Part shown: piece by piece, positions 28,872-37,277 of the stretch | How the letters are laid out: each line of letters begins with the position of its first letter | Position numbering within the stretch: the stretch's first letter is position 1 | NCBI RefSeq assembly: GCF_002252675.1 | Contig: NZ_NQKY01000007.1 | Location: 62,001 to 126,000, forward strand | From: Synechococcus sp. BO 8801 | GTDB lineage: Bacteria; Cyanobacteriota; Cyanobacteriia; PCC-6307; Cyanobiaceae | Direction: 5' to 3' | Length of the DNA: 64,000 nucleotides | The notes under the pieces: generated by a model | Databases searched by the model: none | Seen by the model: the letters and a program-made list of their open reading frames with translations, nothing else | What the model was told of the DNA's origin: nothing | Translations under genes and position numbers: made by a program

Positions 28872-29420
28872 ATGCCCGGCCCCACGGTTCCCCACACCAC
28901 GACTCCAGACGCCACGGCTTCCCTGGTGCTGGTGCGGCACCTGCGTCATGGGGAGGTCCCGGGCCCGGAGCCAGGGCCGGATCCGCCGCTGCGGTTGCCG
29001 CTCCGGGCCGACGAGCGCACGAGCCTGCGGGGCCATCGCCGCAGCGCCTGTGGGCGGGACCTCCTGCTGCAGCTGCCCCGGGGCGCGGCCCTGGAGCCGG
29101 GCGACCGGCTGGCACCGGAGAGCGGTGGGCCCCTGGTGGTGGTGGAGGCCGCCGATGAACCGCTGATGGTGGTGCGGGCCGCCGACCCCCTGGCCCTGCT
29201 GCAGGCGGCCTATCACCTGGGCAACCGCCACGTGGCGATGGAGCTGCACCGGGACGAGCTGCGCCTGGGGGTCGACAGCGTGCTCGAGGATCTGCTGCGG
29301 CATCGGGGGCTGACCGTGGAGCGGATCACCGGGCCGTTTCTGCCCGAAGCCGGGGCCTACGAAGGGTCCGGTCACGCCCACCAGCACGATCATGGCCATC
29401 ACGGCCATTCCCACCCATGA
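28872..29420 (+). CDS. ureE: Urease accessory protein UreE (nickel metallochaperone)
   Basis: About 182 residues from the ATG at 28872; a longer in-frame start would add a Pro-rich leader. Conserved RTSLRGHRRSACGRDLLLQLPRG is the UreE N-terminal domain, here in two adjoining blocks, and HLGNRHVAMEL carries the conserved nickel-binding His. The C-terminal tail HAHQHDHGHHGHSHP is a His-rich nickel store. It delivers nickel to UreG. The stop overlaps the ureF start by 4 bp. Confidence 0.94.
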   Translation: MPGPTVPHTTTPDATASLVLVRHLRHGEVPGPEPGPDPPLRLPLRADERTSLRGHRRSACGRDLLLQLPRGAALEPGDRLAPESGGPLVVVEAADEPLMVVRAADPLALLQAAYHLGNRHVAMELHRDELRLGVDSVLEDLLRHRGLTVERITGPFLPEAGAYEGSGHAHQHDHGHHGHSHP

Positions 29421-30100
29421 GCATCGCCCGGCTGCGACTGTTTCAGCTCGTCAGTCCCGCCTTGCCGGTGGGGGCGTTCAGCTATTCCGAAGGCCTGGAG
29501 GTGCTCGTCCAGGCCGGTGAGCTGGGCGATGCCGAGGACGTGGCCCACTGGCTGGAGGCGGAGCTGGCCCGGGGGGCGCTGGCGATCGAGGCCGCCAGCC
29601 TGAACCGGCTGATGCAGGCGCTCACCCGATGGCGTGAGTTCCCGGAGGGACCGGCCCGCCAGGAGGTGCTGGAGCTGGACGGCTGGCTGCTGGCCCAGCG
29701 GGAGGCGGCCGAGGTGCGGGCCCAGCAGCGCCAGATGGGCCGTTCCCTGCTGCAGCTGCTGGCCGACCTGGCCCTGCCCCTGCCTGGGGACCCATCCCAG
29801 CGCCTGGCCTGGCCAGCCGCCTGGGCCTGGGCCGGGGTGGCCCTGGCCATCGCGCCCGAGGAGGTGGTCGAGGCCTACCTCTACGGCTGGATCGCCACCC
29901 AGCTCAGCGCCGCCGTGCGCCTCGTTCCCCTGGGCCCCACCGAAGCCCAGCGGCTGCAGCTGGCCCTGGCGCCCGCCATCGCCGCCCGGGCGGCGGAGCT
30001 GGTGGCGGCCGATCCCGAGGCCCTCTGGAACGGGGGTGTGGGGGCGGGACTGGCCCAGCTGGGTCATGGTGAGCTGTATTCCCGGTTGTTCCGCAGCTGA
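29417..30100 (+). CDS. ureF: Urease accessory protein UreF
   Basis: 227 residues, opening with LFQLVSPALPVGAFSYSEGLE, the signature of UreF (given here as LVSPALPVGAFSYS). It is mainly helical. Conserved PEEVVEAYLYGWIATQLSAAVRLVPLG spans two blocks. UreF bridges UreD and UreG and gates nickel insertion. Its ATG overlaps the ureE stop (ATGA), and its own stop shares a base with the next ATG (TGATG). Confidence 0.95.
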   Translation: MSIARLRLFQLVSPALPVGAFSYSEGLEVLVQAGELGDAEDVAHWLEAELARGALAIEAASLNRLMQALTRWREFPEGPARQEVLELDGWLLAQREAAEVRAQQRQMGRSLLQLLADLALPLPGDPSQRLAWPAAWAWAGVALAIAPEEVVEAYLYGWIATQLSAAVRLVPLGPTEAQRLQLALAPAIAARAAELVAADPEALWNGGVGAGLAQLGHGELYSRLFRS

Positions 30101-31113
30101 TGGCCACCACCGCAGGGGCCAGCCGGCGGCGGGCGCTGCGCCTGCTGGGCGGTGCCGCCGCCGCCGGTGCCCTGCTGGCCGCCGGATGCCAGGCCCGCCG
30201 CCGGCCCCCGGGCCCGCCGCGGGTGGGCCTGATCCAGTACGTGCGGGGGGCCGCCCCCGATGCCGCCCGCCGTGGATTCGTGCAGGCCCTGGCCAGGGCC
30301 GGCTTCCGGGCGCCGGCCGGCGTGATCCTGCTGGAACGCTTCAGCGAGGGCAGCATGGCCACCTGCCGCGCCCAGGTGAAGGACCTGCTGGAGGCCGGGG
30401 TCGACATGCTGGTGGCCATCGGCACCCCGCCCCTGACGGCGATCCTCGCCATCGCGCCGGCGCGGGTGCCGGTGGTGTTCACCTACTGCTCCAACCCCTG
30501 GGGGGCCGGGGCCGGCACCAGCTACACCCGCCACCGGCCCAACGTGGTGGGCACGGTGAGCACCAGCCCCCTCGCCGAGCAGCTCGACCTCGCCCGCCGG
30601 ATCAGCCCCGGCCTGTCGAGCGTGGGGCTCGTCTTCCATCCCTCCGAAGCCAACGCCAGCTTCGAAGCGGAGCTGCTGCGCCGGGAGGCGAGCCAACGCT
30701 CGATCGCCGTCGTGATCGAGCCGGTGGCGGGGCCGGCGGAGGTGGCCCGTGCCGCCGACGCCCTGGCCGCCCAGCGGGTGGGAGCTCTGGTGCGGGTGGG
30801 TGACTACGCCACCAGCGTGGGCTTCCCCGCCCTGGCGGCGGCCGGCCTGCGCCATCGCCTGCCGGTCTATTCCGTCGATCCCGCCGACATCGCCACGCCG
30901 GGGTGCCTGGCGGTGGTGGGCTGGGATCCAGAGGTCGATGGGGCCCAGGCCGGAGCTCTGGCGGTGCAGGTGCTGCGCGGCCGTTCCCCCGCCACGATGG
31001 CCTTCGAGCCGGTGACCCGGAAGCTGCTGCTGCTGAATCGCCGCACGGCCGGGGCCATCGGGGTGACGTTCCCACCGGAGCTGCTGCGTCAGGCCGACAG
31101 GGTCGAGGGGTGA
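30100..31113 (+). CDS. ABC-type substrate-binding lipoprotein (ABC_sub_bind / TrpX-like family)
   Basis: 337 residues. The N-terminus has a paired-Arg signal (SRRRALRLLGG), a hydrophobic stretch and a lipobox LLAAGC with Cys31, so it is a periplasmic lipoprotein, perhaps Tat-routed. The two-lobe fold is seen as VGLIQYVRGAAPDAARRGF, VDMLVAIGTPPLTAILA, PVVFTYCSNPWGAGAG and VGLVFHPSEANASFE. It belongs to the family of tryptophan/short-peptide-like binding proteins (pfam04392 type). No permease or ATPase gene is adjacent. It is coupled to ureF (TGATG), a puzzling position that hints at a nitrogen-linked ligand, by inference only. Confidence 0.82.
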   Translation: MATTAGASRRRALRLLGGAAAAGALLAAGCQARRRPPGPPRVGLIQYVRGAAPDAARRGFVQALARAGFRAPAGVILLERFSEGSMATCRAQVKDLLEAGVDMLVAIGTPPLTAILAIAPARVPVVFTYCSNPWGAGAGTSYTRHRPNVVGTVSTSPLAEQLDLARRISPGLSSVGLVFHPSEANASFEAELLRREASQRSIAVVIEPVAGPAEVARAADALAAQRVGALVRVGDYATSVGFPALAAAGLRHRLPVYSVDPADIATPGCLAVVGWDPEVDGAQAGALAVQVLRGRSPATMAFEPVTRKLLLLNRRTAGAIGVTFPPELLRQADRVEG

Positions 31114-31137: not shown

Positions 31138-32007
31138 TCAGCGGCCGCGCTCACCGCGGGGCTCCCCGGTCCGCTCGATCAGTTCGATCACCCAGCTCTC
31201 GTTGAGCGTCTTCACCAGGCGGTTGGTGGCGCTGGCCATGGTGGAAAGCTCGCGCAGGGTCTGGAGCAGCAGCGGCCGCGTCTGGGTTTCGGTGCTCTCC
31301 AGGCGCCGGATCAGGGCGGACAGGTCGGCGGCGGTGCCGTCGGCGCGGTCCTCCAGCCGCTCGGCCAGGGCGCGGGTGGCCCCCAGGGTGCGGTTGAGCT
31401 CGCTGCTGCTGCGACGGGTGTCGGCCTCCAGGCGCGTCGCCAGGCGGCGGCTGGCTATCAGGGTGCGATCGAGCTCGTCGAGGCTGCGGGGCAGGCGGGT
31501 CTCCGCCAGGCTCAGCCCGCTGCTGACGGCCCGCTGCAGGGGGATGCGGCTGCTGGCCACCTCGGTGAGCAGGTCATCGATGTCGGGGCGGCTGGTGAAC
31601 ACGAGCGTCTCACCATCACCGATCGGGGGCTGGCCGATCGCCGCCGGGTCGGGGGTGATGGCGATGTAGCTGTCGCCCAGGAGCCCCAGCTGGGCCAGTT
31701 CCGCCCGGCTGCGGCGGCCCACCATGGAGCGGTAGGGGTCCCGCAGCTCCAGTTCCACCAGCACCTGGGCGTCGGGCTGCAGAACGATCCGGCGCACCTG
31801 GCCGACGGCGAATCCCGAGATCTTCACCGCCATGCCCGTCTGCAGGCCAGCGGCATCGAGGGTGCGGAACTGCAGGCGGACGCTGGGAGCGAGCCAGTTG
31901 CCGGCGCGGGCGATCCCCAGCACGAACACCCCCAGCAGGGCCACCGCTCCCGCCAGGAAGACCAGGCTCTGGGCGCCGGGGCGCCGCGGCTGGGCGGTGC
32001 TGGACAC
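31138..32007 (-). CDS. MCE-domain protein, MlaD/TGD2-like
   Basis: 289 residues. One N-terminal membrane helix (LVFLAGAVALLGVFVLGIA) is followed by a single MCE domain (about 40-120: FRTLDAAGLQTGMAVKISGFAVGQV ... GLLGDSYIAITP, in two conserved blocks). A long coiled-coil C-terminus rich in Arg/Glu/Leu follows. It resembles the periplasmic ring subunit of lipid-transport systems such as Mla and plant TGD. It starts 2 bp after the permease-like gene; no ATPase (MlaF) is nearby. Confidence 0.9.
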   Translation of the reverse strand: MSSTAQPRRPGAQSLVFLAGAVALLGVFVLGIARAGNWLAPSVRLQFRTLDAAGLQTGMAVKISGFAVGQVRRIVLQPDAQVLVELELRDPYRSMVGRRSRAELAQLGLLGDSYIAITPDPAAIGQPPIGDGETLVFTSRPDIDDLLTEVASSRIPLQRAVSSGLSLAETRLPRSLDELDRTLIASRRLATRLEADTRRSSSELNRTLGATRALAERLEDRADGTAADLSALIRRLESTETQTRPLLLQTLRELSTMASATNRLVKTLNESWVIELIERTGEPRGERGR

Positions 32008-32009
32008 GG

Positions 32010-32630
32010 TCAGTTTCCTCCCATGCGCAGGGGATCGACAGCGATCGTCCAGAGCAGATCAAGGCAGACCATCACCCCGATGCCGAGCCGCAGCGACCGG
32101 GCCATGCGGGACGCCATGCCCACGGCGCCGGAGGAGCCGCGACGGGCCTGGTGCAGGCAGATGGCGGCGCAGATCCCGCCATAGGCGCCCGCCCTGACCA
32201 GGGCGGCCGCGAAGCGGGCCGGCTCCAGCTGGCCGATCAGGAAGCCCACCTCCCCCGCCACATCCCCCTGGTTGAGCGTGAGGCTGGCGGTGATGATCAC
32301 CGCCGCCATGAAGTAGAGCAGCAGCACGACGCTCAGCAGCCCGCTGGCCAGGAGGTCGGGCCCCCAGGAGCCGGGGGGGCGCCGGTCGCCGAGCAGCAGC
32401 GGACCATCCCGGAGCAGCAGCAGCAGGCTGACCAGCAGCGGGGCCAGGAACAGCAGGGCCCGCACCGCCAGCAGTTCGATCGTGAGCCTGGAGAGCTGCT
32501 GCAGGGGGCTGCGCAGCAGCTCGATGAAGCCGAGGCAGACCACCACCCCCGTGCCCAACACGGTGGCGACCAGGCGCCCATCCAGCCGCTCGAAGCGACG
32601 GCTCAGCGTCGGGATCGGTCCGTCACTCAC
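32010..32630 (-). CDS. MlaE-like ABC lipid-transport permease (divergent)
   Basis: About 206 residues from a GTG at 32630, preferred because GAGGG lies 5 bases before it. An ATG at 32666 without such a site would place its start only 14 bp from the divergent ureG start. It has five or so hydrophobic segments. The C-terminal half ([22 protein letters not shown], then [29 protein letters not shown], then VCLDLLWTI) aligns by eye with the last third of MlaE. The characteristic N-terminal MlaE motifs are weak. It is followed by mlaD at 2 bp, supporting a lipid-transport role. Confidence 0.7.
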
Positions 32631-32680
32631 CGCAGCCCTCGGCGCTGGCGTCAGGATGGCACCCATCCTGGATCGGGGCG

Positions 32681-33295
32681 ATGGGCAGCAAACTGAGGGT
32701 CGGTGTGGCCGGGCCGGTGGGATCGGGCAAGACGGCCCTGGTCGACGCCCTCTGCCGCCGGCTGCGGGAGCGTCTGCAGCTGGCTGTGGTCACCAACGAC
32801 ATCTACACCCAGGAGGACGCCCAGTTCCTCACCCGCGCCGGCTCCCTGGCCCCCGAACGGATCCGGGGCGTGGAGACCGGCGGCTGCCCCCACACCGCCA
32901 TCCGGGAGGACTGCTCGATCAACCGGGCGGCGGTGCAGGAGCTGGAGGAGGCCTTCCCGGACCTGGACCTGGTGCTGGTGGAGAGCGGCGGCGACAACCT
33001 GGCGGCCAGCTTCAGCCCGGAGCTGGTGGATCTGTGCATCTATGTGATCGACGTGGCCGCCGGCGACAAGATCCCCCGCAAGGGGGGCCCCGGCATCACC
33101 CGCTCCGACCTGCTGGTGATCAACAAGATCGACCTGGCCCCCATGGTCGGGGCCAGCCTGGCGGTGATGGAGGCCGACACCGAGCGGATGCGCGGCGGCC
33201 GGCCCTGGTGTTTCACGAATCTGCGCAGCGGTGAAGGCCTCGATCGGGTCGAGAGCTTCCTGCTGCGGCAACTGCCCGAACCGCTGGCCGTCTGA
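32681..33295 (+). CDS. ureG: Urease accessory GTPase UreG
   Basis: 204 residues. The P-loop is GPVGSGKT (residues 11-18), with [14 protein letters not shown], the nickel-binding CPH motif in [15 protein letters not shown], and the guanine-specificity NKID. UreG couples GTP hydrolysis to delivery of nickel into urease. It is separated from ureF by the orphan lipoprotein and the mlaDE pair, and is followed by the urea transporter operon. Confidence 0.97.
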
Positions 33296-33517
33296 GACGC
33301 CTGAGCGATCAAGGATTCTGGTATTCGCCTTTCAGGCCTTGATCAGCAAAACCGTAGGTAATGCAACATATCGACAGACCTGCGACGTGCAAATCCTCAC
33401 TCCGGCAGGCCTTCGGCGGCTTTCTGTCTCATTGGATACCGGGTGCAACCACGTCCTTCCTTACCTTTCCCTTTGCCGTCGGTTACGGCGACTACAATTC
33501 ATCTTGAACAGGCTTCA
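33296..33517 (+). promoter_or_regulatory. Control region upstream of urtA
   Basis: About 220 bp without a gene, and noticeably AT-richer than its surroundings. A perfect 8-bp inverted repeat GATCAAGG (33307-33314) / CCTTGATC (33337-33344) just after ureG could be a weak terminator or an operator. A one-mismatch NtcA-type site lies at 33358-33371. Before the urtA ATG the AGG in GAACAGGCTTCA serves as ribosome binding site. Confidence 0.5.
33358..33371 (+). promoter_or_regulatory. Candidate NtcA-like site upstream of urtA
   Basis: GTA-ATGCAACA-TAT matches the GTA-N8-TAC consensus except for the last base. urt operons are typical NtcA targets under nitrogen limitation (established knowledge). 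A well-placed TAN3T -10 box about 22 bp downstream is not clear, so this is only a candidate. Confidence 0.35.
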
Positions 33518-34813
33518 ATGTCTCTGCATCTTTCAAGGCGACTGGCAGCTGCAATTGCCGCAACTGCTGTGAGCGTAACCCTCGTCTCCTGCGGGGGCGA
33601 GTCCGGTTCCGGCGGCAATTTCGACGGTGAAGTGAAGGTTGGCATCCTTCACTCGCTCAGTGGCACCATGGCCATCTCCGAAACGACTTTGAAAGAAGTC
33701 GAGGAGATGGCGATCAAGGAAATCAATGATGCCGGCGGCGTCAAAGTCGGCGGTAAGTCCTACAAGATCGTCGCTGTCTCTGAGGATGGCGCCTCTGACT
33801 GGCCCACCTTCGCCGAGAAGGCCCAGAAACTGATCGACTCCGACAAGGTCGCCGTCGTGTTCGGTGGCTGGACCTCCGCCAGCCGCAAGGCGATGCTGCC
33901 GGTCTTCGAGTCGAAGAACCACATGCTCTTCTACCCGATTCAGTACGAGGGTCAGGAGTGCTCCAGAAACATCTTCTACACCGGCGCCGTTCCGAACCAG
34001 CAGGCTGAGCCCGCGGTTCAGTGGCTGATGGACAAGTTCTCCGACAAGCTCGGCAAGAAGGTCTACCTGGTCGGCTCCGACTACGTGTATCCGCGTACGG
34101 CCAACACGATCATCAAGGAGCAGATGAAGGCCCTTGGCGGTGAGACCGTCGGCGAGGACTACATCCCCCTCGGCAACACCGAGGTGGCTCCGATCATCGC
34201 CAAGATCAAGAAAGCCTTCCCCGATGGCGGGATCATCATCAACACCCTGAACGGCGACTCCAACGTCGCCCTGTTCAAGCAGTTCAAGGCCTCGGGCATC
34301 GATCCGGCCAAGTACCCGATCATGTCCTTCTCCATCGCCGAGGAGGAGATCCGCCAGATCGGTCCCGAGTACACCACCGGCACCTATGCCGCGTGGAACT
34401 TCTTCATGAGCCTGGACACCCCGGCCTCCAAGAAGTTCACCGCCGACTTCCAGGCGATGTATGGCGCCGACCGCGTCACGGGTGACCCGGCGGAATCCGC
34501 CTACAACATGGTCTACCTCTGGAAGAACGCCGTTGAGAAGGCGGGCACCTTCGAAGACCTCGACAAGGTCCGCAAGGACATGATCGGGATCACCTTCGCC
34601 GCTCCCCAGGGCGAAATCAAGATGTTCCCCAACCACCACACCTCCGAGCGGGTGCTCATCGGCGAGGCGGAGCCCACCGGCCAGTTCAAGATCCTCTACG
34701 ACAGCGTCAAGGCCATCCCGCCGCTGCCCTGGAACCAGTTCGTTCCTGAGACCAAGGGCTTCACCTGCGACTGGACCCAGGATCGTCCTGACGCCGGCAA
34801 GTTCAAGATGTGA
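33518..34813 (+). CDS. urtA: Urea ABC transporter substrate-binding lipoprotein
   Basis: 431 residues from the ATG at 33518. The signal peptide has a lipobox LVSCGG with the lipid Cys near residue 25. The mature protein opens VKVGILHSLSGTMAISE, typical of branched-chain-amide binding proteins. Characteristic UrtA stretches are FGGWTSASRKAMLPVFE, YEGQECSRNIFYTGA and LVGSDYVYPRTAN. It captures urea in the periplasm at low concentration. Codons are visibly less GC-saturated than in neighbouring genes, suggesting high expression. Twin hairpins after the stop separate it from urtB. Confidence 0.97.
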   Translation: MSLHLSRRLAAAIAATAVSVTLVSCGGESGSGGNFDGEVKVGILHSLSGTMAISETTLKEVEEMAIKEINDAGGVKVGGKSYKIVAVSEDGASDWPTFAEKAQKLIDSDKVAVVFGGWTSASRKAMLPVFESKNHMLFYPIQYEGQECSRNIFYTGAVPNQQAEPAVQWLMDKFSDKLGKKVYLVGSDYVYPRTANTIIKEQMKALGGETVGEDYIPLGNTEVAPIIAKIKKAFPDGGIIINTLNGDSNVALFKQFKASGIDPAKYPIMSFSIAEEEIRQIGPEYTTGTYAAWNFFMSLDTPASKKFTADFQAMYGADRVTGDPAESAYNMVYLWKNAVEKAGTFEDLDKVRKDMIGITFAAPQGEIKMFPNHHTSERVLIGEAEPTGQFKILYDSVKAIPPLPWNQFVPETKGFTCDWTQDRPDAGKFKM

Positions 34814-34952: not shown

Positions 34953-36110
34953 TTGGAACTTTTCTTTTCTCAGATCCTCGATGGTCTCAGCATCGGATCT
35001 GTGCTGTTGCTCGCAGCCACAGGTCTGGCCATCGTGTTCGGATTGATGGGTGTCATCAACCTCGCCCACGGCGAATTCATGATGCTAGGGGCCTATGTCA
35101 CCTATGTGGTGCAATCGGCCTTCAAGCCCATGGGTGGTGTGATCTTCGAACTGTATTTCCCGGTCTCGCTGGTGCTCGCGTTCATCGTGACGGGGCTCAT
35201 CGGGGTGCTGCTGGAGAGAACGTTGATCCGGCAGCTCTATGGCCGGCCCCTTGAAACGCTGCTGGCGACCTGGGGAGTCAGCCTGATTCTGATCCAGCTG
35301 ATTCGAAGCGTTTCGACGGCCATGATGCTGGGCATCATCGTGGGTGTCGTTGTCGGTTTCATTATCTCGAAATTACTGGCAGCGAAGTTCTCCGAAAAAC
35401 CATTCTTCACCTATCTCAACGGACTCGGCTGGGCCATCGCCATCGGCATCGGCCTGATCGCCGTCAACCTGTTCGACCAGGTCCGGCCCCTCGCCAAGCC
35501 CTGGTTCGGCCCGCGCAACATCGATGTCACCGCCCCCAAATGGCTCCAGGGAAGCTGGGGGATGATCGGCGGCATCGAACTGCCCGGCCTCCGCATCTTC
35601 ATCATTCTTCTGTCGGCCCTGCTCCTGCTCGCCACCTACTGGTTCCTCAACAAGAGCGTCTGGGGCCTGCGCATCCGTGCGGTCACCCAGAACCGTCAGA
35701 TGAGCAACTGCCTCGGCATTCCCACCGACCGTGTCGACAGCATCACCTTCGGCATCGGCTCCGGACTGGCGGGGGTCGCCGGCTGTGCCATCACCCTGCT
35801 GGGTTCGGTGGGTCCGAACCTCGGGGCGGCCTACATCGTCTCCTGCTTCATGGTGATCGTTCTCGGTGGTGTGGGGAACCTGCTCGGCACCGTGCTGGCC
35901 TCGCTGCTCTTGGGCATCATCCAGTCGGTGATCGGCTCGGGCACCCTGCTGACGATCTTCCCTGACATGCCGTTGGCGGCCAAGGGGGTGATCGAGTTCT
36001 TTGCCACCACAAGCATGTCGCTGGTGCTGGTGTTCATCTTCATCATTGTCTTCCTCCAGTTCCGCCCCAACGGCATGTTCCCCCAGAAGGGTCGCTCGGT
36101 CGATGCCTGA
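34953..36110 (+). CDS. urtB: Urea ABC transporter permease UrtB
   Basis: 385 residues from a TTG start at 34953. An in-frame TAA lies just upstream, and the next Met is inside conserved sequence, so TTG is the best choice and gives the usual short leader before SQILDGLSIGSVLLLAATGL. It is a LivH-type membrane protein with the family motif VFGLMGVINLAHGEFMMLGAY and a later permease loop RAVTQNRQMSNCLGI. It pairs with UrtC to form the membrane channel. Confidence 0.95.
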   Translation: MELFFSQILDGLSIGSVLLLAATGLAIVFGLMGVINLAHGEFMMLGAYVTYVVQSAFKPMGGVIFELYFPVSLVLAFIVTGLIGVLLERTLIRQLYGRPLETLLATWGVSLILIQLIRSVSTAMMLGIIVGVVVGFIISKLLAAKFSEKPFFTYLNGLGWAIAIGIGLIAVNLFDQVRPLAKPWFGPRNIDVTAPKWLQGSWGMIGGIELPGLRIFIILLSALLLLATYWFLNKSVWGLRIRAVTQNRQMSNCLGIPTDRVDSITFGIGSGLAGVAGCAITLLGSVGPNLGAAYIVSCFMVIVLGGVGNLLGTVLASLLLGIIQSVIGSGTLLTIFPDMPLAAKGVIEFFATTSMSLVLVFIFIIVFLQFRPNGMFPQKGRSVDA

Positions 36111-36156
36111 CCCGATCAGTTCCACCCACTGCAGATTCCCGTTCCATCTCCCCACC

Positions 36157-36162
36157 AGGAGG
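36157..36162 (+). promoter_or_regulatory. Strong ribosome binding site of urtC
   Basis: AGGAGG, 8 bases before a GTG. It decides the urtC start at 36171 over later Met codons and is one of the few consensus-quality sites in the window. Confidence 0.85.
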
Positions 36163-36170
36163 CCCTACCT

Positions 36171-37277
36171 GTGAAAATCTTCCAACGACTCGTCCCCTGG
36201 ATTCTCCTGGCGATCGCCCTGTTCATCCTGCCGGCAGCACTGGATGATTTCCGCCTCAACCTGTTCGGCCGCTATTTCTCGCTGGCGATCACGGCACTGG
36301 CGATCGACCTGATCTGGGGATACACCGGTCTGTTGAGCCTGGGCCAGGGCATCTTCTTTGCCCTCGGCGGCTACGCCGTGGCCATGTACCTGATGCTCAA
36401 CACCAAGAGCCTCGCCGGTGGCAACGGGATTCCCAAGTTCTTCGAGAACTACGGCGTCGACCAGCTGCCCTTCTTCTGGCAACCCTTCTGGTCACCGGTG
36501 TTCACCCTGATCGCCCTGTGGGTGATTCCGGCCGTGGTGGCGGGCCTGGTGGGCTGGCTGATCTTCCGAAACCGCATCAAGGGGGTGTACTTCTCGATCA
36601 TCACCCAGGCGGCTCTGATGGTCTTCTTCCACTTCTTCAACGGCCAGCAGAAACTCTTCGACGGCACCAACGGCCTCAAGACCAGCACCAGCGAACTGTT
36701 CGGCCAGCTGGTGGGCTCGCCCGACATGCAGGTGTGGTTCTACCGCCTCACGGTGGTGCTGCTGCCCCTGGCGTTTCTGGTCTGCCGTTACTTCACCAGC
36801 GGTCGCTTCGGTGATGCCCTGATCGCCATCCGCGACGACGAGAGCCGCCTGCGCTTCGCCGGTTTCAACCCCGTCCCCTTCAAGACCATCGTCTTCCTGG
36901 TGGCGGGCGCCCTGTGCGGCATTTCCGGAGCCCTCTACACCGTCCAGTCCGGCATCGTCTCGCCCCAGTACATGTCGATCTCCTTCTCGATCGAGATGGT
37001 GATCTGGGTCGCCGTGGGCGGACGGGGCACCCTGGTGGGGCCGATCATCGGCGCCACCGTGGTCAACTACCTGCGCAGCCTGGTGAGCGAGGCCCTGCCC
37101 GAAGCCTGGCTGTTCGTCCAGGGGGCCCTGTTCATCTTCGTGGTGGTTCTGATGCCCGATGGCATCTACGGCTGGATCACCAAAGGAGGCTTCCGCACCT
37201 TCCTGGCCGCCTTCGGCATCGCCAAACCTGCCAAGACCTACCCCAAGCTCGACAAGGAGGCCGTTCCTGTGGATTAG
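36171..37277 (+). CDS. urtC: Urea ABC transporter permease UrtC
   Basis: 368 residues, GTG start set by the AGGAGG upstream. It is a LivM-type permease with about nine hydrophobic segments. Conserved IDLIWGYTGLLSLGQGIFFALGGY lies near residue 48 (in two blocks) and the coupling loop ALIAIRDDESRLRFAGFN near residue 225, which contacts the ATPases. It forms the transmembrane pathway with UrtB. It starts 60 bp after urtB and is followed by urtD after 70 bp. Confidence 0.96.
   Translation: MKIFQRLVPWILLAIALFILPAALDDFRLNLFGRYFSLAITALAIDLIWGYTGLLSLGQGIFFALGGYAVAMYLMLNTKSLAGGNGIPKFFENYGVDQLPFFWQPFWSPVFTLIALWVIPAVVAGLVGWLIFRNRIKGVYFSIITQAALMVFFHFFNGQQKLFDGTNGLKTSTSELFGQLVGSPDMQVWFYRLTVVLLPLAFLVCRYFTSGRFGDALIAIRDDESRLRFAGFNPVPFKTIVFLVAGALCGISGALYTVQSGIVSPQYMSISFSIEMVIWVAVGGRGTLVGPIIGATVVNYLRSLVSEALPEAWLFVQGALFIFVVVLMPDGIYGWITKGGFRTFLAAFGIAKPAKTYPKLDKEAVPVD

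Follow-up and report, generated by a model that had tools for sequence, protein, structure and literature searches.

A TrpX-like binding lipoprotein overlapping ureF in Synechococcus: a candidate accessory receptor that may have outlived its parent importer

What does a substrate-binding lipoprotein do when its start codon shares a base with the ureF stop codon and no ABC importer is encoded beside it? The question is raised by a gene of Synechococcus sp. BO 8801, found in a stretch of 64,000 nucleotides (the window). The features of the locus are as follows.

29417-30100, + strand: ureF, urease accessory protein (PF01730, 121.6 bits)
30098-30102, + strand: TGATG, overlap of the ureF stop and the binding-protein start (sequence reading)
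30100-31113, + strand: orphan TrpX-like substrate-binding lipoprotein, subfamily A (PF04392, predicted fold)
30121-30189, + strand: Tat-like lipoprotein signal, residues 8-30 (SRRRALRLL...LLAAGC, Cys30; motif read by eye)
31138-32007, - strand: MlaD (MCE domain), convergent (PF02470, 55.2 bits)
32010-32666, - strand: divergent MlaE-like membrane protein (weak Pfam MlaE match, E 0.003, below cut-off)
32681-33295, + strand: ureG, parted from ureEF by the cassette (TIGR00101, 326.7 bits)
33443-34813, + strand: urtA, urea-binding protein of the adjacent urea importer (TIGR03407, 572.2 bits)
34953-37277, + strand: urtB-urtC, PF02653-type permeases (PF02653)

An orphan binding protein within a urease cluster

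The 337-residue product of the subfamily A gene (hereafter A) matches PF04392 (ABC_sub_bind) with 127.8 bits (gathering cut-off 25.9) over profile positions 2-292 of 293, and residues 8-30 (SRRRALRLLGGAAAAGALLAAGC) form a twin-arginine and lipobox-like stretch. The earlier note's description of an ABC-type binding lipoprotein is thus borne out; the start of A reads SRR...LLAAGC. The Tat/lipobox assignment was made by reading the motif by eye and from conservation in the alignment, where Cys30 is shared by all 24 relatives and R9 and R10 are kept in at least 90%. UrtA family TIGR03407 does not match A; it matches the protein encoded at 33443.

The AlphaFold model of A (pLDDT 87.1, pTM 0.81) has the predicted fold of TrpX, the binding protein of the TrpXYZ importer, and of its solved relatives SP1069 (PDB 3lft), VC_1101 (3lkv) and CD0873 (6hni), which belong to the same Pfam family. 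Over 293-296 aligned residues the model superposes on these structures at 1.6-1.8 Å, with Z scores of 39.4 for 3lkv (the best), 37.8 for 6hni and 37.4 for 3lft; the open form of the 6hni protein (6hnj) gives 32.8. The next protein after the TrpX-type structures, LivK, scores far lower (Z 21.7). Against this likeness, A shares only 23-25% identity with the TrpX relatives and falls far under the NCBIfam cut-off for the TrpX equivalog NF041285 (115.7 versus 390 bits). Four PDB entries (8wxm, 6k1w, 8wgk and 5z6v) contain chains of 164-189 residues that match one part of the family profile only and are possibly stand-alone, half-size relatives.

Base 30100 belongs both to the TGA of ureF (30098-30100) and to the ATG of A. 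The one-base overlap, the coordinates, the strand and the start had all been given correctly in the earlier note, and the synteny check it proposed finds the ureF linkage conserved in 15 loci of the genus and in G429, a genome of another genus of the same family. The TGATG junction is present in 15 of 15 ureF-linked loci of the genus (G015 included); in G429 the start of A is a TTG inside a 4-base TTGA overlap with ureF. Because the linkage is conserved, translational coupling of A to ureF is a credible reading of the junction. The start of ureF in turn overlaps an upstream ureE-like ORF (ATGA at 29417-29420). The exact pattern GTAN8TAC, which we take to be the NtcA consensus, has 0 matches in the window versus 0.28 expected by chance.

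The convergent MlaD gene lies 24 bases past the A stop. Together A, MlaD and the MlaE-like gene make up a 2.5-kb cassette that divides ureEF from ureG-urt. According to the available portion of PMC6737895, cyanobacteria often have ureE, ureF and ureG side by side, and their urease genes often form a cluster with urt. Our literature search found no description of this gene arrangement. The order SBP, MlaD, MlaE-like, ureG, urtA is kept in 16 of 16 ureF-linked loci (15 of the genus plus G429); MlaD is matched in all 16 and is frameshifted in G002 and G022. The MlaE-like protein reaches 17.6 bits against PF02405 (cut-off 22.5), in its C-terminal half, and weak MlaE matches recur in 12 of 15 aligned members (best E 4.8e-5, others up to E 5); its AlphaFold model is poor (pLDDT 52.6). 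The product of 32010-32666 is likely to be related to MlaE. Its ATG and that of ureG diverge and lie only 14 bases apart (32666-32681), so that a promoter of ureG's own would sit inside the MlaE-like gene.

Elsewhere in the window's genome, contig C11 yields one more MlaD match and C36 an MlaE match. Similar MlaE-MlaD pairs with no adjacent SBP occur elsewhere in the genus (L190 4658-6363, L193 4330-6095, L191 5062-6641), those of L190 and L193 adjoining a gene that we take to be CTP-synthase-like; loci L187-L189, L192 and L194-L198 were left out of the analysis.

In TrpXYZ systems the cognate permease and ATPase are encoded with the binding protein. Neither stands beside A: ORFs and profiles at the locus gave no adjoining ABC importer permease or ATPase. 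The claim that A has no permease beside it therefore stands for ABC importer permeases; it had overlooked the MlaD/MlaE-like pair 24 bases downstream.

The parent importer and the binding pocket

The nearest relatives of A in our tree form subfamily B (e.g. L062 6992-8026), which in picocyanobacteria is encoded by the last of three genes in an operon of PF02653 permease, ATPase and SBP. A and B are 41-50% identical; carB is present in nine of the 12 fetched B loci that were checked for it. The tree covers 12 A proteins and 13 B proteins together with five further PF04392 proteins of cyanobacteria. A forms one clade (99/96), the G429 copy included, and A and B together are set apart from the five others (100/99). 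The branch leading to A is long and the tree carried a long-branch warning; our claims are limited to A and B being one group and A one clade. In this fuller tree the branch that splits B from everything else has a support of only 73/86; in a first tree, without the G429 copy, A lay beside the B protein of G012 and B was paraphyletic. To judge from the sequences, A is an old, diverged paralogue of the binding protein of the B importer.

The pocket of A was mapped by sequence alignment with PDB chains. In the accessible part of PMC9382623, the contacts T108, A127, T129, D152 and N233 (S. suis numbering) are common to the proteins compared. A has T109, Y129, S131, S154 and Y236 at these positions and thus keeps one of the five, the first Thr. 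None of the A proteins (12) or B proteins (13) departs from T109, S131, N132, W134, T155, Y236 and W275. Three of the five distant proteins have retained A, T, D and N in positions 129/131/154/236, and two deviate. Two ligand-selectivity sites are named in the portion of PMC6816091 at hand. The second corresponds to position 277, which is occupied by Pro in 10 and by Ala in two of the 12 A proteins (P277 in that of the window), and by Tyr in every one of the 13 B proteins. Asp260 of A aligns with the Ala246/Ala268/Glu263 selectivity site of the same excerpt; we rejected it as a change of specificity since Asp is found in three of the five distant proteins too.

In A and B alike, other residues stand in for most of the contacts to aromatic amino acids, which makes a canonical aromatic amino acid an improbable ligand for A. 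The ligand class would be common to A and B and distinct from that of TrpX; given Pro or Ala for Tyr at 277, the ligand of A may yet differ from that of B. B also has a similar twin-arginine lipoprotein start. It differs from A in having a permease and an ATPase in its operon and in its strong constraint, whereas A lies behind ureF, evolves faster and carries Pro or Ala at 277.

The window's genome is 99.7% complete in 47 contigs. A search of the whole genome at E 1e-10 gave no match to the B permease, and A was the one PF04392 gene found. PF02653 was found only in urtB and urtC and, on contig C1, in a Liv-type pair, which has its own Peripla_BP_6 binding protein. A partner permease elsewhere in the genome was thus sought with PF02653 and with the B permease, and only the urt and Liv-type systems came up. 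The label 'orphan' holds genome-wide in the sense that no permease of A's own class was found.

Across the genus, 12 of 42 genomes have a match to the B permease, nine of them without A; 18 of the 42, some incomplete, match neither A nor the B permease. Twelve of the 15 genomes that carry A, the window's genome among them, have no match to it. Within the genus only G012 combines an intact A with a complete three-gene B operon; in the other genus, G429 likewise has A and a full B operon. In G040 (L073 6495-7769) the permease frame runs into pieces of the SBP and the ATPase is missing, as in a decayed importer, and G015 has B importer fragments only.

Losses, broken copies and constraint

A copy of A lies behind ureF in 15 of 42 genus genomes (G000, which is the window's genome, G002, G004, G007, G008, G012, G013, G015, G017, G022, G024, G025, G038, G040 and G041); none was found in the other 27, which include some incomplete assemblies. 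In one of these, G011, a cassette-type MlaD is cut by a contig end and ureF has no match; G011 may carry the cassette too. ureF is matched in 36 of the 42 genomes, 21 of which have it without A. In the 14 of these 21 that we inspected, ureF and ureG are ∼40-228 bases apart with neither Mla gene between them. A wider search of 386 genomes of the phylum (cut-off E 1e-15) gave 16 matches in 14 genomes. Five had already been seen, and ten of the other 11 (nine genomes) were inspected, the eleventh being a second match of G128: one is linked to ureF (G429), six proved to be B operons and the remaining three come from distant relatives.

A tree of UreF, UreG, UrtA and UrtB places two genomes lacking A, G003 and G027, among the carriers (G027 with G013 at 0.99; G003 at 0.23, a weak placement). 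The ureF-ureG spacer of G003 (L121) holds colinear remnants of the start and the interior of the SBP gene, a weak match of 21 bases to mlaE, and the boundary between mlaE and ureG, and that of G027, read by eye, resembles the ureG-proximal start of mlaE. From these stubs it follows that both genomes have lost a cassette, rather than merely never having gained one. Both still keep ureF, ureG and urtA. Compared with G038, gaps disrupt the frames of A, MlaD and the MlaE-like gene in G002, one of these gaps being of 50 bases, whereas ureF and ureG are gap-free; the single-base gaps could be draft-assembly errors. In G015 the mature part of A apparently lies in another frame than its signal peptide. 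With G002 and G015 read in this way, 13 of the 15 genus copies are intact reading frames, and the G429 copy is open too. In G022 (L048) a one-base deletion breaks MlaD and the adjacent A frame is open. The deletions in G003 and G027 and the broken cassette of G002, with ureF and ureG retained, indicate that A is dispensable in nature.

That A is lost in G003 and G027 while ureF, ureG and urtA are kept bears on the proposal that it is a nickel, urea or amide receptor serving urease, to which its location behind ureF is the only pointer. Scans with Pfam and NCBIfam profiles matched A to no nickel- or urea-binding family, UrtA is already encoded next door, and the closest solved structures bind Trp, Phe and Tyr, as stated in the available text of PMC6816091. 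The pocket and the history of cassette loss argue against this ligand class as well; we therefore set aside the nickel or urea ligand entertained in the earlier note and regard such a receptor as highly improbable.

The joint fate of the three genes raises the alternative that A is the periplasmic partner of an MCE-type transporter formed with the convergent MlaD/MlaE-like pair. The three are linked in 16 of 16 loci in two genera, are all frame-broken in G002 beside gap-free ureF and ureG, and are all gone from G003 and G027. However, a single deletion would remove contiguous genes anyway, the genes converge and do not form one operon, similar MlaE-MlaD pairs elsewhere do without an SBP, MlaD is frameshifted beside an intact A in G022, and the modelled fold of A is that of a small-ligand binder. 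We consider such a partnership improbable. Slighter still is the chance that the whole cassette is a functional unit, in which A would have left its ABC importer, joined an MlaE-like/MlaD complex and come to be dosed through ureF translation.

Estimates of dN/dS (NG86) gave a median of 0.326 for A (range 0.126-0.438, 78 pairs of 13 sequences) and 0.321 for ureF (65 pairs of 12), with 0.218 for MlaD (n = 9), 0.043 for urtA (n = 9) and 0.086 for B (n = 8). In five B genomes the medians are 0.255 for ureF, 0.0995 for urtA and 0.0675 for B. The value for B is thus about a quarter of that for ureF, and that for A about equal to it. Relative to ureF, A appears about four times less constrained than B, a comparison that is indicative because the gene sets span different genomes, yet selection on it is purifying in every pair.

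A could therefore be drifting, given its long branch, a dN/dS equal to that of ureF and its broken copies: a paralogue captured behind ureF that lost its partner permease and retains little function, the overlap reflecting compact gene packing. The relaxed dN/dS compared with B, the copies that are broken (G002) or apparently so (G015), the deletion remnants in G003 and G027 and the failure to find A in 27 of 42 genus genomes (some incomplete, as G011 with its MlaD at a contig end) are all in keeping with this. Thirteen of the 15 genus copies and that of G429 are nevertheless open reading frames, dN/dS is below 0.44 in all 78 pairs, the pocket residues, Cys30 and the twin Arg are conserved, and the cassette occurs in two genera. 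We judge drift a possibility to be taken seriously, though on balance unlikely.

A receptor beyond its importer

Our tentative preference, held with less than even confidence, is that A is an accessory receptor that has outlived its parent importer and hands its ligand to another PF02653-type permease. We regard an accessory receptor that lost its parent importer as the likeliest reading, with drift close behind. A would have started out as an additional receptor serving the B permease. It would be exported by the Tat route, anchored via Cys30 and close on a small ligand of the B class that is not a canonical aromatic amino acid. Where the B permease was lost, A would persist by passing the ligand to another PF02653-type permease, the candidates in the window's genome being UrtBC or the Liv-type pair, and the overlap with ureF would tie the dose of A to the urease accessory genes. 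E. coli LivJ and LivK share LivHMGF, two receptors thus using one permease. We propose permease sharing for A by analogy with this model. The sole reason to name UrtBC as a candidate is that it is among the two PF02653 systems found in the window's genome; no computed result singles it out over the Liv-type pair, and nearness to urtA-urtB is equally seen in the 14 inspected loci without A.

A may instead report its ligand to a membrane receptor or buffer it in the periplasm, with no transport at all. The lack of an adjoining ABC partner fits such a role, and receptor activation is described for SBPs from several families in the part of PMC9602780 available to us. The eight locus proteins that were scanned include no receptor, however, and we think a sensor or buffer doubtful.

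Orphan urtA genes of marine Synechococcus offer a parallel: they too are picocyanobacterial genes for binding proteins without transporter genes, and are suggested in the accessible portion of PMC8786288 to use other ABC machinery. They differ from A in belonging to another SBP family and in lying, according to the same portion, near phage-associated genes, whereas A is fixed in the urease cluster.

Binding proteins that lack a transporter are a frequent observation, but one that seldom receives an explanation. The genomes compared here present a series, with importer and orphan together (G012, G429), a decaying importer (G040, G015), an importer not found (12 of 15 genus carriers), a broken A (G002), and the cassette deleted with stubs remaining (G003, G027). 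Such a natural series lends itself to the question of whether binding proteins can outlive their importers by borrowing another permease. The altered pocket shared by A and B also suggests that the B importer, itself a weak match to the TrpX model, takes up a substrate other than an aromatic amino acid.
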